A stretch of DNA of 33,804 nt, taken from the NCBI GenBank assembly GCA_900316715.1, contig ONEC01000010.1, positions 1 to 33,804 on the forward strand, written 5' to 3'. This DNA comes from an uncultured Eubacteriales bacterium (lineage in GTDB: Bacteria > Bacillota > Clostridia > Lachnospirales > Lachnospiraceae). The notes beneath the pieces were generated by a model. The model saw only the letters and a program-made list of their open reading frames with translations, searched no databases and was not told where the DNA came from. A program made the translations under genes and the position numbers. Shown here in pieces: positions 25,502 to 33,804 of the stretch; positions within the stretch are counted from its first letter, which is position 1; every line of letters begins with the position of its first letter.

Positions 25502-26332
25502 TTAGTTTACAAAGAGATGCTTTCTATTCTTGAAGTAAATGATATTTACGATGATAAGAACGAAAGATGTAATAAGCTGTGCGATAATTGATGGTGAAAG
25601 GATATCACCGATACCGGCACCATACTTAGAAATTATACTTGATACTGTAATAATATATGCGATAGTTGCAAGTAAAACAACTGAAAGATAACCAACATAG
25701 AACACAGGACCATTTGTCTTGAATCCCGAAAGCTGGAAACGAACAAAAATAGCAGCACCAGCTAAAAGAAGGAAAATGATACCAAATGTAACATCACAGC
25801 CCTTAAGACCATCAATCATAGAATAGATAAGATCTCTCAGATCCTGTCCATCCTGTACATATATGGAACCTGTACAAAGGCGGATACCGTTAACCGCACC
25901 AACAAGTGCTGACAGGAAAAGCTGTACCCAGATAATGAACTTGAACCAGTTCATACCAATCTGTCTTCCATCAGGTGAAATTGTATATGATGGCACTGAA
26001 CCGCTCTGTGCCGGAGCCGGTGCCGGATATCCGTTCATCTGAGTTCCCTGTGGCATATATGGGTTCTGCTGTGGCTGGCCGTAACCCTGCTGTGGCTGAC
26101 CATATGCATTCTGCTGTGGCTGTGCGTAGCCCTGTGGCTGGCCATATGCGTTCTGCTGTGGCTGTGCGTAGCCCTGTGGCTGGCCATATGCGTTCTGCTG
26201 TGGCTGTGCATAGCCCTGCTGATCACCATACTGCATACCCTGATAGTTTCCCTGTGCCTGAATTGGCTGTCCACAGGTAGTACAGAATGTGTTACCGTCT
26301 TCAACAAATGAATTACAATTTGGACAAATCAT
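25502..26332 (-). CDS. Zinc-ribbon membrane protein with Gln/Pro/Tyr-rich tandem repeats
   Basis: The predicted protein is 276 aa. An N-terminal zinc ribbon (Cys3, Cys6, Cys17, Cys20) is followed by about 110 residues of [11 protein letters not shown]-type repeats and four membrane helices (starting near [48 protein letters not shown] and [15 protein letters not shown]). I chose the ATG at 26332: GGGGAGG lies 8 bases upstream and it begins directly with the zinc ribbon; the longer frame adds 48 residues of non-conserved promoter-region sequence. It has its own promoter-like sequence at 26448-26476 and heads the run into ilvD. Proteins of this architecture are widespread in Firmicutes, with unknown roles. 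Confidence 0.88.
26090..26215 (-). repeat. Three 42-bp tandem repeats inside the zinc-ribbon gene
   Basis: Three nearly identical 42-base units (26090-26131, 26132-26173, 26174-26215) encode [14 protein letters not shown] each. A diverged fourth unit ([10 protein letters not shown]) follows. Few base differences suggest recent duplication, so copy number may differ among strains. Confidence 0.9.
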
Positions 26333-26447
26333 TTTATATACCTCCCCTACATATTCTTCACAAAATGATTTTTCTGAGTCATTGTCATGCCCATAATTCT
26401 TTCTTCCAAATAAGAAAACTTTAACGTTGATTGTAACACAAAATCCT

Positions 26448-26476
26448 ATGTAATGTATATAAATTTTTCTTGTCAA
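26448..26476 (-). promoter_or_regulatory. Promoter for the zinc-ribbon membrane protein gene
   Basis: On the minus strand a perfect TTGACA (26471-26476), 17-base spacer, then TTACAT (26448-26453). It lies about 115 bases upstream of the chosen start at 26332 and is back-to-back with the diguanylate cyclase promoter. Confidence 0.6.
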
Positions 26477-26520: not shown

Positions 26521-26560
26521 ATTAATGTGGTGTTTTTTAACTTATATGGGGTAAGTGCAT

Positions 26561-28495
26561 ATGACTAGACGAACTGTAGCTGTATACACAGCGAATATGT
26601 ATCGTGATATGGTCAAGGAGACTCAGTATGGTCTCATACAGGCCGCTAAAAGAGAGGGAGTAAAACTCCTTTTTTTCACTGCGTTCAGCGATAACTTCAG
26701 TACCTTTACCAAGTATACTGAATTTACGAACTACGATGTCGGAGACTTCGCAATATACTATCTTCCGGATCTGAACGAGTATGATGGTCTTATTACCATG
26801 GATACATATCTCCCGGATTACTATCTTGATTTCCTGGATGAGATAAAGCGAAACAGTCCTATTCCGGTTATTACACTTGGAAATGACTGCGAATATACTC
26901 ATAACGTTGTCAATGACCAGGAGAAATCCCTTGAGAACTTAATCGATCATCTTATCGAAGTCCACGGCTGTAAGGAACTTGTCCATGTTGCCGGCCGACT
27001 TGATCTTGAGTTTGCCCAGGTAAGACTCAGAGTCTTTGAGGAAACTCTTAAGAAGCATGGTCTTCCATTCGAAAAGAGAAATGTAGCCCAGGGCAATCTC
27101 TGGTACGACTGCGGCGAAAGGGTTGTTGACCAGCTGGAACGCGACTATGCCGACGAACCGGACCGGATGCTTCCGGATGCGATAGTATGTGCTAATGACT
27201 ACTCTGCCATTGGTGTTCTTCAGGAACTGGAGAAACGTGGTTACAATATACCTGAAGATGTAATAGTTACCGGATATGATAACATTCCTGAGGCAATGTT
27301 TACCGATCCTACTATCACAACTTCCGAGCAGCCTTTTGAACAGGTAGGAAAAGATGGAATAAATACCCTTGTTAAGCTATGGAAGGGAAAAAAGATACCT
27401 CGCACCAAGGCCGATCCCGGTGTACTGAAATGCAATCAGTCCTGCGGATGCGAACCAAAGCACGTATATAAGAAAGATACACTTAAGGAGCAGTATTCAG
27501 AGACTATATCAAGGCTGGATGATCTCGCTCTTTCCAATACCAATCTTATGCTCTCTGCTCTTGCTTCAAAGACCTATGAAGATTTCTTAAAGAGCATAGA
27601 GGATAACTGCCTTATCGATACAGGTTTCCATGATGCAGTCCTCTGTCTTATGACTGACTGGGATAAACACCTTATCGTAAGAAGGCCGGAAGACTTTAAC
27701 GCTATTCAGTTTGAAGTAACCTGTGGAATGTATAACGGCCGTCCGATCAAGAGAGGCCTTCTCCCTAAGGGACAGCTTCTTCCGGATGAAATGATGAACA
27801 ACCCGGAACCATACCACATAATTCCAATACATAACTTCGAATTCTTTATGGGATATTTCATCATATCTCCTGACCTGGAGAATCTCAGTCAAGCAAATAT
27901 GAAGACCTGGTTCCTGAATATCAGTATTCTTCTTGAAAACTGGCATACAAGACAGGAGCTGAACATCACTCTGGAGAGAATGCGTAACCTTTACAGTACT
28001 GATGTTCTTACAGGACTTTATAACCGCCGTGGTTTTGGAATGTTCTTTGAGGATTATTACAACGAATGTAAAGAGAATCACACCAACCTGGCAGTATTCC
28101 TTATAGATATGGATAACATGAAGACTGTCAACGATACCCTCGGACATGATGAAGGTGATTACTGCTTATGTACCATCGCCCATGCCATGAAGGAAGCCGC
28201 TGTTAGCGACGATATATGTATCAGATCCGGTGGTGATGAGTTCGTAGTACTTGGAAAGGACTACGATGAGGATAAGATTGCTAAGTTCATCACAGATCTG
28301 AGACATGCTATTGCACTTAAGAGACGTAAAGATGGAAAAGCTTATGATATTTCAGTCAGCGTAGGATGCTATATGCAGATACCGACAGACGATGGTATGA
28401 CCCCGGCAGAAGCAGGCGAGGCATTCCTGAGGTACGCCGACACAGCGATGTACAAGGAGAAGAAGGAGCATAAAATGGCTCTGCAGGATAAATAG
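26561..28495 (+). CDS. Cytosolic diguanylate cyclase with LacI/PBP1-type ligand-binding domain
   Basis: The protein is about 644 aa. Residues 1-300 form a type-1 periplasmic-binding-protein fold like the effector domain of LacI regulators (TRRTVAVYTANMYRDM start, VCANDYSAIGVLQELEKRG, VTGYDNIPEA, TTSEQPFEQVGKDG), but no DNA-binding domain, signal peptide or membrane helix is seen. A middle GAF-like region (about 330-460) and a helix lead to a GGDEF domain: TDVLTGLYNRRGF, then RSGGDEF around 556-561. The motif is intact, predicting c-di-GMP synthesis. The RxxD inhibitory site has Val in place of Arg. ATG at 26561 is preferred over an in-frame GTG 6 bases upstream, because GGGG is then well spaced. 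The ligand is probably a sugar or nucleoside, as in LacI relatives; this is inference. Confidence 0.93.
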   Translation: MTRRTVAVYTANMYRDMVKETQYGLIQAAKREGVKLLFFTAFSDNFSTFTKYTEFTNYDVGDFAIYYLPDLNEYDGLITMDTYLPDYYLDFLDEIKRNSPIPVITLGNDCEYTHNVVNDQEKSLENLIDHLIEVHGCKELVHVAGRLDLEFAQVRLRVFEETLKKHGLPFEKRNVAQGNLWYDCGERVVDQLERDYADEPDRMLPDAIVCANDYSAIGVLQELEKRGYNIPEDVIVTGYDNIPEAMFTDPTITTSEQPFEQVGKDGINTLVKLWKGKKIPRTKADPGVLKCNQSCGCEPKHVYKKDTLKEQYSETISRLDDLALSNTNLMLSALASKTYEDFLKSIEDNCLIDTGFHDAVLCLMTDWDKHLIVRRPEDFNAIQFEVTCGMYNGRPIKRGLLPKGQLLPDEMMNNPEPYHIIPIHNFEFFMGYFIISPDLENLSQANMKTWFLNISILLENWHTRQELNITLERMRNLYSTDVLTGLYNRRGFGMFFEDYYNECKENHTNLAVFLIDMDNMKTVNDTLGHDEGDYCLCTIAHAMKEAAVSDDICIRSGGDEFVVLGKDYDEDKIAKFITDLRHAIALKRRKDGKAYDISVSVGCYMQIPTDDGMTPAEAGEAFLRYADTAMYKEKKEHKMALQDK

Positions 28496-28528
28496 CTGAT
28501 AGTCAGCTGATAGTTATATAAGACGGAC

Positions 28529-28607
28529 GCCCGAGCATCTGGATGATGCGCTTCAACCGCCCATTATAGGGCTCTGAAGCACACACCACTCTGCTCGGGC
28601 TGTTTAT
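28529..28607 (+). ncRNA. Three-stem structured RNA element, copy A, 3' of the diguanylate cyclase gene
   Basis: P1 is a perfect 9-bp stem GCCCGAGCA/TGCTCGGGC (28529-28537, 28592-28600). P2 is GCTTCA/TGAAGC (28550-28555, 28575-28580), extendable past one mismatch. P3 is GCCC/GGGC (28559-28562, 28569-28572) with ATTATA loop. Single-stranded blocks CATCTGGATG, TC between P3 and P2, ACACCA and the tail TGTT are shared with copy B. It starts 34 bases after the gene's stop codon. The tail TGTTTATATATAG might allow weak termination. No known RNA family was recognised. Confidence 0.7.
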
Positions 28608-28628
28608 ATATAGTCTAATATATTTTAA

Positions 28629-28705
28629 TCAACAGCTCAGACAGGCTGGTGCGTGCATCAGAGGCGGTTTTCGCCGGGTGATGCACGACATCCAGATGTC
28701 TGAGC
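28629..28705 (-). ncRNA. Three-stem structured RNA element, copy B, 3' of rlmH
   Basis: Same fold as copy A, read on the minus strand. P1 GCTCAGACA/TGTCTGAGC (28697-28705, 28635-28643), P2 CGTGCATCA/TGATGCACG (28679-28687, 28652-28660), and P3 GGCG/CGCC (28672-28675 and 28663-28666 as plus-strand coordinates). Loops CATCTGGATG, CCC, TC, GCACCA and tail TGTTGAT align without gaps to copy A except in the P3 loop, while many stem pairs differ by compensatory changes. It begins 8 bases after the rlmH stop. The tail is AT-rich but has no T-run. Confidence 0.7.
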
Positions 28706-28713
28706 GTACGTAT

Positions 28714-29214
28714 TTACTTATGGTAGGGCTCGCCGGATATGATGCGGTAGCTGCGGTAGATCTGCTCCAGCAGGATGACTCTCATCAACTGATGCGGGAA
28801 CGTCATCTTCGAGAAGCTGAGGTGATAATCTGCTCTTCCGATCACTTCGTCTGCCAGGCCGAGGGAACCGCCTATTACAAATTGGATATGGCTCACTCCG
28901 CTTACACCGAGGCTGTCAATCTTCTTTGACAGTTCTACGGAGTCTATCTCCTTACCGTTGATTTCCAGAGTTATGACATATGTCTTTCCATCGGAACCCT
29001 TTCCTGTGCCGCCGAGATATTTAAGGATCTTCTCTCCTTCTTTACGCTTTATCTCGGCCTCTTCTATGGCACTGGCCTTATCCGGAGTCTTCTCATCCTG
29101 AACCTCTATTACGTTCAGATTACAGTACTTGGACAGTCGCTTCTTGTATTCGTCCAGCGCATCACGGTAGAACTTCTCTTTTATCTTTCCAACGCAGATT
29201 ATATCTATCTTCAA
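28714..29214 (-). CDS. rlmH: 23S rRNA (pseudouridine1915-N3)-methyltransferase RlmH
   Basis: A small SPOUT methyltransferase (knotted fold) that methylates pseudouridine 1915 of 23S rRNA on the assembled 70S ribosome. KIDIICVGKIKEKFYRDALDEY at the N-terminus, the SAM-binding FVIGGSLGLADEVI, LSFSKMTFPHQLMRVILLEQ and the end GEPYHK are all diagnostic. It is 166 aa, slightly longer than E. coli (155). The start is TTG at 29214 with AAAGGAG well placed; no ATG fits. It is separated from the PurF-like gene by a strong terminator, so it needs its own promoter or read-through. It is followed by the structured element at 28629-28705. Confidence 0.97.
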   Translation of the reverse strand: MKIDIICVGKIKEKFYRDALDEYKKRLSKYCNLNVIEVQDEKTPDKASAIEEAEIKRKEGEKILKYLGGTGKGSDGKTYVITLEINGKEIDSVELSKKIDSLGVSGVSHIQFVIGGSLGLADEVIGRADYHLSFSKMTFPHQLMRVILLEQIYRSYRIISGEPYHK

Positions 29215-32164: not shown

Positions 32165-32374
32165 TTACTTTATATCTGTAACTTCATAATCCTTGTCTGT
32201 TACGGCCTTTGTCAGCACCTCATCACTGATATCAGCACTTAGAGTAACAACTGCTGTTCCTGCCTCATGGCTAACTTCAGCTGCATCCACACCTGAAAGT
32301 GCCTCAAGCGCCTTCTTAACAGTTGCCTCACAATGTCCGCACATCATACCTGTAATATAAATTGTCTTTGTCAT
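32165..32374 (-). CDS. Possible internal start giving a free CopZ-like copper chaperone
   Basis: Within the copA frame, ATG at 32374 begins MTKTIYITGMMCGHCEATV, a complete HMA domain of about 69 aa, the size and layout of CopZ. A perfect AAGGAG (32384-32389) lies 9 bases upstream, in the linker, where coding constraint is weak. The same frame thus could make a full ATPase with a tethered domain and a free chaperone. E. coli copA yields a separate metal-binding chaperone by frameshifting, so one gene serving both roles has precedent; internal initiation here is inference. Confidence 0.45.
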   Translation of the reverse strand: MTKTIYITGMMCGHCEATVKKALEALSGVDAAEVSHEAGTAVVTLSADISDEVLTKAVTDKDYEVTDIK

Positions 32375-33804
32375 CGTTTCTGTCTCCTTATCATCAATTT
32401 TATCATTTTCTGCAGCCTTATGTTCTGCAGCTTCATAATCTTCAGCCGGTTCAGACTTTTCAGCCGCTGCCCTCTCTTCATCGGCACTGCCCTTACCCAG
32501 TTTCACAAGATTCAGCCTGAGTGCATTCATACATACACAGAAGCTGGACAGGCTCATGGCCGCTGCTCCGAACATTGGCTTCATAGCAAAACCATAAAGT
32601 CCGATAGCCATCGGTATGCATATTACATTATAAATGAATGCCCAGAACAGATTCTCATGTATATTTCTAATGGTTGCTCTGCTGAGACGTATACCTCTGG
32701 CTACATCCATGAGGCTGTTCTTCATCAGAACCACATCAGCAGCATCCACAGCCACATCAGCTCCGGCTCCGATTGCCACGCCTATATCTGCTTTAGTGAG
32801 GGCTGGTGCATCATTTATGCCATCCCCCACCATCATAACCTTGCCGGTCTTCATAAGTTCAGAGACTGCACTCTCCTTTCCATCCGGAAGGACTCCTGCA
32901 ATTACCTCGTCTACTCCGGCGATCTTACCGACTGCCTCAGCCGTTCTCTTATTATCGCCCGTCAGCATAACGACCTTAAGCCCCAGGGATTTCAGCTCAC
33001 TTATGGCTTCAGCACTGTCTTCCTTGATCATATCTGCTACAGCTATGATCCCCAGCAGCTTATCACCCATCGCAAAGAGCAGCGGTGTTTTACCCTCTTC
33101 TGAGAGCTTATTTACCTCTGCCTTATGAACATCAGATATCTTAGCCACCTCACTTATATAAGCGAAGCTTCCCCCCTGCAGAACTCCCGCATCACACTCT
33201 GCTTTAAGGCCGTTTCCCGGCAGTGCTTCAAAACCTTGAAGCTCTATTAGTCCGCCATTTATATCTCTTCCAGTCTCCCCTTCGTTCCAGTATTCAACCA
33301 CCGCCTTCGCCAGCGGATGTTCCGAATATTTTTCAAGGGAAGCTGCATATCTGAGAAGTTCCTTCTCTGTCACACCACCTGTTGCGATCACATCTGTAAC
33401 CTTCGGCTCACCCTTTGTGATAGTGCCCGTCTTATCGAGAATTACTGTTTTAATCCTTCCGGTCTGCTCCAGCGACTCAGCCGTCTTATATAGTATTCCT
33501 CTCTTTGCGCCGACACCGCTTCCGACCATTATTGCCACCGGAGTGGCAAGTCCCAGCGCACACGGACAGCTGATTACAAGAACTGAGATTGCTCTTGCAA
33601 TAGAAAATGCAGTGTCCCGTCCGGCTATCATCCATCCAATAAATGTAATAACAGCGATTCCTATAACTACAGGAACAAATATTCCCGATACCTTATCTGC
33701 AATCCTTGCCAGAGGCGCCTTAGTTGCCGACGCATCGCTTACCATCTGAATTATCTTAGAGAGGGTTGTATCTTCTCCAACTCTCATAGCCCTGCATTCT
33801 ATAT
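32165..33804 (-). CDS. copA: Copper-translocating P1B-type ATPase, 5' end cut by the window, with C-terminal HMA domain
   Basis: The frame is open to the window edge (IECRAMRVGEDTTLSKII), so the N-terminal part (membrane helices 1-4, most of the A-domain) is missing only because of the window. Present are the metal-channel CPCALGLATP, phosphorylation site DKTGTITKG, HPLA of the nucleotide domain, and MVGDGINDAPALTKAD, then the last two membrane helices. After an acidic Ala/Glu linker comes a heavy-metal-associated domain with the Cu-binding GMMCGHC. An HMA domain at the C-terminus rather than the N-terminus is unusual. An internal ribosome site before this domain is described separately. CPC plus HMA predicts Cu(I) export. 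Confidence 0.95.
   Translation of the reverse strand, partial: IECRAMRVGEDTTLSKIIQMVSDASATKAPLARIADKVSGIFVPVVIGIAVITFIGWMIAGRDTAFSIARAISVLVISCPCALGLATPVAIMVGSGVGAKRGILYKTAESLEQTGRIKTVILDKTGTITKGEPKVTDVIATGGVTEKELLRYAASLEKYSEHPLAKAVVEYWNEGETGRDINGGLIELQGFEALPGNGLKAECDAGVLQGGSFAYISEVAKISDVHKAEVNKLSEEGKTPLLFAMGDKLLGIIAVADMIKEDSAEAISELKSLGLKVVMLTGDNKRTAEAVGKIAGVDEVIAGVLPDGKESAVSELMKTGKVMMVGDGINDAPALTKADIGVAIGAGADVAVDAADVVLMKNSLMDVARGIRLSRATIRNIHENLFWAFIYNVICIPMAIGLYGFAMKPMFGAAAMSLSSFCVCMNALRLNLVKLGKGSADEERAAAEKSEPAEDYEAAEHKAAENDKIDDKETETMTKTIYITGMMCGHCEATVKKALEALSGVDAAEVSHEAGTAVVTLSADISDEVLTKAVTDKDYEVTDIK

Follow-up and report, generated by a model that had tools for sequence, protein, structure and literature searches.

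Integron attC core sites carry the R-box motifs RYYYAAC ... GTTRRRY, and the ERIC and RU repeats are palindromic. ERIC and RU-type sequences are around 100 bp long, intergenic and non-autonomous, and they are likened to MITEs (PMC2759123, PMC2229807). REPs, as treated by Di Nocera et al. (2013, PMC3733652), are 20-40 bp long, with stems of 5-13 bp and a GTAG or CGTC tag, GT pairing is often observed in them, and many REP dimers join unlike partners; the main text of that paper has 0 occurrences of Firmicutes or of words in Clostridi-.

How does a pair of hairpins between two convergent genes of an uncultured Eubacteriales bacterium (Lachnospiraceae) compare with these? The window, meaning the whole 33,804-nt stretch of DNA that was analysed (contig ONEC01000010.1, positions 1 to 33,804), contains a gene encoding a LacI-type sensor domain and a GGDEF diguanylate cyclase (26555..28495, + strand; PF00990 6.5e-33, PF13377 1.6e-24), which converges with rlmH, encoding a SPOUT methyltransferase (28714..29214, - strand; PF02590 8.1e-57). 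By eye, the gap between them holds only a pair of elements of ~85 nt each, with shared loops and stems that differ by paired changes. We consider it likely that both belong to a family of scattered, imperfectly palindromic DNA repeats that behave like REP/BIME sequences, exceed them in length, have a conserved bulged core and have expanded within one small clade of Lachnospiraceae. Copy 1 (28520..28605, + strand, 96 bits, positions 1-86 of model R1) starts 24 nt past the stop of the GGDEF gene, copy 2 (28630..28714, - strand, 95.6 bits) lies directly after the rlmH stop with a one-base overlap, and an AT-rich spacer of no assigned strand (28606..28629) separates their 3' ends. On the + strand, copy 1 runs from the tag ACGGACG (28523..28529), whose last G belongs to the outer pair of P1, through the P1 5' arm GCCCGAG (28529..28535, from sequence and fold), the 5' side of the bulged core, CATCTGGATG (28536..28545), and the P2 5' arm GCTTCA (28550..28555) to an ACC internal loop and the apical hairpin GCCC-ATTATA-GGGC (28556..28572, likewise from sequence and fold), with the P3 arms at 28559..28562 and 28569..28572. 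The TC internal loop, the P2 3' arm TGAAGC (28575..28580) and CACCA then occupy 28573..28588, and the P1 3' arm CTCGGGC lies at 28594..28600. Copy 2, on the - strand, has its P1 arms GCTCAGA at 28699..28705 and TCTGAGC at 28635..28641, and its CATCTGGATG at 28689..28698.

The arms and loops named in the earlier note are all present within 28529..28705, and the two copies align end to end, as it said. It had described a three-stem element, but the arms form a single long, imperfect hairpin interrupted by bulges and internal loops rather than three separate stems, and although the position was right, the conserved unit also takes in the 5' tag ACGNACG and so begins a few bases earlier. That neither copy has a T-run was partly right, with copy 1 followed by TGTTTATATATA (7 T in 12) and copy 2 by TGTTGATTAAAA (5 in 12). 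Folding energies are -41.8 kcal/mol for copy 1 and -44.2 kcal/mol for copy 2, compared with dinucleotide-shuffle means of -21.6 and -20.8 (z-scores -6.87 and -7.17), and none of 200 dinucleotide shuffles was as good for either copy. Elsewhere in the window, on the - strand and by eye, are a predicted membrane protein that begins like a zinc ribbon and contains tandem repeats (25502-26476) and a P-type metal ATPase whose C-terminus resembles a heavy-metal-binding domain (32165-33787).

Further copies had been expected in the window's own and related genomes, and they were found. An exact motif occurs at 10 places in the own genome (G000), against 0 for the reversed control, and model R1, built from these ten copies, matches 54 places there at E<=1e-3. 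Scores fall below 40 bits for five of the 54, among them those at C106 and C145, which share little beyond the apical motif. A 55th copy, at C122:15585 (E 0.0074), is interrupted: at G000:C122:15585-15771 (L034) the second stem of a full element is broken by an unrelated stretch of ~110 nt, which holds several small perfect hairpins and is probably another repeat. Model R2, built from the 54 copies and run over the 61 genus genomes, gave 54 matches in G000, 18 in the close relative G263, 3 in G221 (2 places, one of them matched on both strands), 2 in G200, 1 in G206 and 1 weak match in G231, and no match in 55 of the 61. When 200 family genomes were searched with strict filters and 22 candidates were scored in each, only the own genome matched and the other 199 did not. 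Among named genomes the exact apical pattern was found only in CAMOCO010000035 and UBA2864, in a search that may exclude the own genome. The short motif TCACCCG...CTCTGA is present in 25 of the 61 genus genomes, the own included, and outside the own genome most of its matches are, by eye, without matching apical arms. In viral contigs a second pattern gave no match and the exact apical motif gave one (L126), which we attribute to chance, as a large open frame of a phage contig encloses it and its match to the model is weak (10.6 bits).

The earlier note could match the element to no known family, and Rfam likewise gave no match, for the window at the gathering score and for five loci at E<=1; no paper on such a repeat in Lachnospiraceae was found among open-licence PMC papers, of which a survey of stem-loop families (PMC2267715) may be relevant. 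At one locus (L038 2831-3082, - strand) a T-box leader was matched at 72.9 bits against a gathering score of 93, with its 5' end cut. Two other hairpins with an identical 25-nt apical motif, TCACCCGTCCAATAAAGTCCTCTGA, occur at G000:C106:29257-29330, at C145:13528-13613 and in G263 (L116, L114); the surrounding stem shows a paired change, and the C106 hairpin has a T-run like a true terminator. Tandem half-element units of ~42 nt are seen by eye in G263:C10 (L112, about 2030-2200). The G231:C145 contig (L046) is 99.3% identical to G000:C106 across 1,572 bases and probably derives from the species of the window; it may be a contaminant.

The copies share a common plan, ~80-86 bp long, which the model renders as 86 positions with 26 pairs and internal loops. 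Its 5' half reads ACGNACG, P1, variable pairs, GATG, CG.GC, a stem, mCC and a small hairpin, and the 3' half continues with TC, a stem, A, CG, CAC, pairs, P1' and a rather T-rich edge. In the core, GATG stands opposite CAC, and the second stem ends in an mCC/TC internal loop (CA-mCC-G ... C-TC-TG). The outer stem P1 is very variable and nearly always paired, with a mean entropy per column of 1.33 bits, and the unpaired core (0.49) is only slightly less variable than the core stems (0.64). Some unpaired bases are near-invariant (A29 in 52/54, C43 and C44 in 54/54, T63 in 53/53 and C64 in 51/53), positions 32 and 42, also unpaired, vary freely, and among copies of the CATCTGG subfamily the unpaired core shows no lower variability than the stems of the core (pairwise difference 0.195 vs 0.174). 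By eye, subfamilies differ by paired swaps beside GATG: CTGGATG/CACCAG, CATGATG/CACATG, CCGGATG/CACCGG and CAGGATG/CACCTG. The tag is an exact ACGNACG in 30 of the 55 copies.

Where do the copies lie? Simple ORF calling provided both neighbours for 52 of the 55, of which 24 are in convergent gaps, 17 are co-directional and sense, 11 are co-directional and antisense, and none is in a divergent gap. The expectation that copies lie 3' of genes in sense orientation thus holds for 41 of 52, 38 of these 41 beginning <=50 nt from the end of the same-strand gene, but 11 of 52 are antisense to both neighbours. The 55 copies form 42 loci, of which 13 are close pairs; every pair is arranged + then -, with the 3' ends facing, and 11 of the 13, by eye, join clearly unlike P1 stems.

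Comparison between relatives finds copies lost, gained and nested. At a GNAT - lipoprotein - HgdC-like locus common to G000, G263 and G221, all that remains of one old copy in G000 is a 5' arm next to a newer copy, and the same is true of its partner in G263; one copy is in all three genomes, truncated in G263, and another is missing from G221 (all by eye). At C20 a newer copy is seated inside the arms of a G263-type element, splitting it in G000, and the G263 site corresponding to C67 has a hairpin that shares the tag and P1 but has no core. Tagged outer arms enclose an inner copy at C31 (twice), C127:57801, C143:3629 and, by eye, C20. Of 15 G263 element stretches compared, 10 match element loci of G000. 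A further 14 G263 loci were picked from ~31 G000 loci for which no G263 element had been seen, so that absence was expected; C31 ran off its contig, and the 13 readable sites have no full copy and none of the 18 G263 matches, several of the operon-type gaps among them having nothing at all. Near-identical single copies follow the same esterase gene in G200 and G206 (L107 3484-3569, L109 3660-3746) in opposite orientation, either by a flip in place or by two insertions. No clean empty site with a target duplication was seen among the compared relatives, and no insertion event was captured. Mobility is nonetheless strongly indicated by these sequence comparisons.

Two copies appear to have been conserved where they stand. 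Between G000 and G221, the copy at the lipoprotein 3' end shows differences at 7 of 74 sites: one pair has changed from A-T to G-C, five unpaired sites differ, and no pair is broken; its flanks no longer align, and the coding DNA of the locus is 74-82% identical. The C28 copy, between FtsK and FTHFS genes, differs from its G263 counterpart at 1 of 77 sites, a one-sided change (T-A in G263, C-A in G000). These near-unchanged copies indicate that some are kept by function or by correction; they count against the reading as a mobile repeat and leave room for a possible function at the level of RNA or of both strands.

The earlier note took covariation around fixed loops as the mark of a selected RNA. 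The covariation itself was borne out: in a 63-row set, 9 rows of which are weak or palindromic re-readings, the score is 0.627, compared with 0.162 in shuffles and <=0.077 in slid pairings, 24 of 26 pairs show changes on both sides, and 393 of 1,606 cells are double changes. A measure of further pair types was unexceptional, being matched by 253 of 500 shuffles in one test and 28 of 500 in the other. The reading as selected RNA fared worse. The 54-row alignment has 1,386 paired cells, which are not independent, the copies being related, and alignments A4 and A5 were fitted to the model. Of these cells, 1,342 are Watson-Crick, 4 are G-T, 13 are A-C and 27 are other mismatches. Free folds of 55 copies have G-U in 29 of 1,520 pairs (1.9%), compared with 21 of 242 (8.7%) in 21 script-found ordinary terminators at the same loci. 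Selection on one RNA strand is not favoured, because G-U would then be far commoner than A-C, and the near-absence of G-U means that the paired changes were made in one step, or went through a quickly removed intermediate, or that both RNA strands were constrained. The low G-U thus argues against single-RNA-strand selection and for a hairpin maintained at the DNA level, or on both strands; it is also expected if the RNA of both strands had to fold, which counts against a DNA-only reading. A published mechanism, template switching during replication (PMC8794818), can make paired changes in one step, and it may have acted on the arms of the element.

A structured 3'-UTR RNA selected on the sense strand, whether a stability element, an sRNA or a protein-binding RNA, would accommodate the strong covariation with its fixed loops, the fold z-scores near -7, the 41 of 52 copies behind a same-strand gene and the in-place conservation at two orthologous sites. 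We nevertheless regard it as unlikely: G-U pairs are very rare and no commoner than A-C, both neighbouring genes run antisense to 11 of 52 copies, near-identical copies take opposite orientations after the same gene, copies turn over between relatives, and Rfam has no match. A role as single-strand RNA is not supported.

Could the element instead be a lineage-specific, non-mobile shape of bidirectional intrinsic terminator, selected at gene ends? In the GGDEF-rlmH gap, G200 and G206 have A-tract/hairpin/T-tract terminators instead of the element (by eye and by fold), the G263 gaps at C146, C166 and C135 have other hairpins (by eye), and a need on both strands would account for the low G-U. The mean number of T in the 12 bases after P1' is higher at convergent sites (6.5, 23 copies) than for co-directional sense (5.0, 17 copies) or antisense copies (5.0, 11 copies), with p 0.013 and 0.017, respectively, the copies being related. 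Such a shape leaves unexplained the bulged core shared by 54 scattered copies and their nesting, few T follow the copies in short operon-like gaps (C28, C65, C143:16115, C173), and at C31 and C117 an ordinary terminator is kept beside the element (by eye). As an account of the family it is less likely again than a structured RNA, although use as a bidirectional 3'-end hairpin is probable at some sites.

A classical REP/REPIN mobilised by a Y1 tyrosine transposase (RAYT) is very unlikely, even though the element is like the REP dimers described in PMC3733652 in its location, its facing pairs and their unlike partners. The Y1_Tnp family PF01797 has no match in G000, G263 or G221 (completeness 98.6, 94 and 73%) and is present in 36 of the 61 genus genomes, including copy-poor G200, G206 and G231. 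Size and tag are unlike those of GTAG/CGTC REPs: GTAG/CTAC is near an end in 5 of 55 copies, and the complement of ACGNACG holds CGTC only if N is G (17/55), and not as a tetranucleotide beside the stem. We therefore reject this reading on transposase, size and tag. Of ~80 flanking genes, 30 were scanned by Pfam and included no transposase, recombinase, integrase or reverse transcriptase, 28 being ordinary cellular genes (transport, metabolism, regulation, translation) and two having no Pfam match, so that a gene-linked explanation gains no support from these 30. A 629-aa gene between two pairs on C130 was considered as the mobiliser and rejected, being by eye a lipoprotein with repeats that has the same neighbours in three species. 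Recombination sites like integron attC, folded as a single strand with extrahelical bases, match the long imperfect hairpin, conserved bulges and post-gene position, but R-box motifs are found at neither end of any of the 55 copies and the loci are scattered among ordinary cellular genes in the 30 scanned, and this exceedingly improbable alternative is rejected on the missing R boxes.

The best reading of the family is thus a new, long, bulged REP/BIME-like palindrome, and among the roles offered in the earlier note a palindromic mobile repeat fits best, a terminator role being plausible for some sites only. In such a repeat the complementarity of the arms would be maintained in the DNA itself, through selection for a DNA hairpin and/or through one-step templated correction from arm to arm in replication, and the invariant bulged bases may be read by a putative mobilising protein. 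That copies settle near stop codons would be due to their being least harmful there, and some of them could replace ordinary terminators, halting transcription in both directions. More tentatively, and with appreciable doubt, the element could be viewed as a DNA hairpin that transposes, a putative non-Y1 enzyme recognising its bulged core in folded single-stranded DNA. The hairpin would insert preferentially at the tips of existing post-gene hairpins (its own older copies, perhaps terminators), and its arms would coevolve by one-step templated correction, giving RNA-like covariation without an RNA role. A fold whose stems change in pairs around fixed loops usually counts as strong evidence for a selected RNA. 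In this family the pattern is accompanied by almost no G-U pairing and by copies that are scattered and nest in one another, and covariation alone would mislabel a probable DNA repeat as RNA. The closely related species, with their shared loci, offer material on how palindromic repeats spread where a Y1 transposase is not found, and the same family is useful for asking why repeats land past stop codons and how two arms change together.

Among known systems, bidirectional intrinsic terminators are similar in having an A-rich edge, a GC-rich stem and a T-rich edge between convergent genes, but the element differs in the few T after many copies, the shared apical core and multi-copy descent. The hairpins maintained by template switching, as reported by Monttinen and Loytynoja (2022, PMC8794818), offer a one-step way of making paired changes without G-U intermediates; that account concerns RNA genes and no repeat family, and its extension to the element is our proposal. 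ERIC and RU sequences, compared by description only (PMC2759123, PMC2229807), are alike in size, intergenic position and non-autonomy, but are enterobacterial. The element is also reminiscent of the CGTC- and GTAG-tagged REPs which, in the account of PMC3733652, are dispersed palindromes near gene 3' ends, mostly in convergent or co-directional gaps, that often form inverted dimers of unlike partners, the CGTC REPs also occurring without a dedicated transposase. Unlike these REPs, it is 80-86 nt long with 26 pairs, a shared bulged core, the tag ACGNACG, almost no GT pairs and a Lachnospiraceae host.
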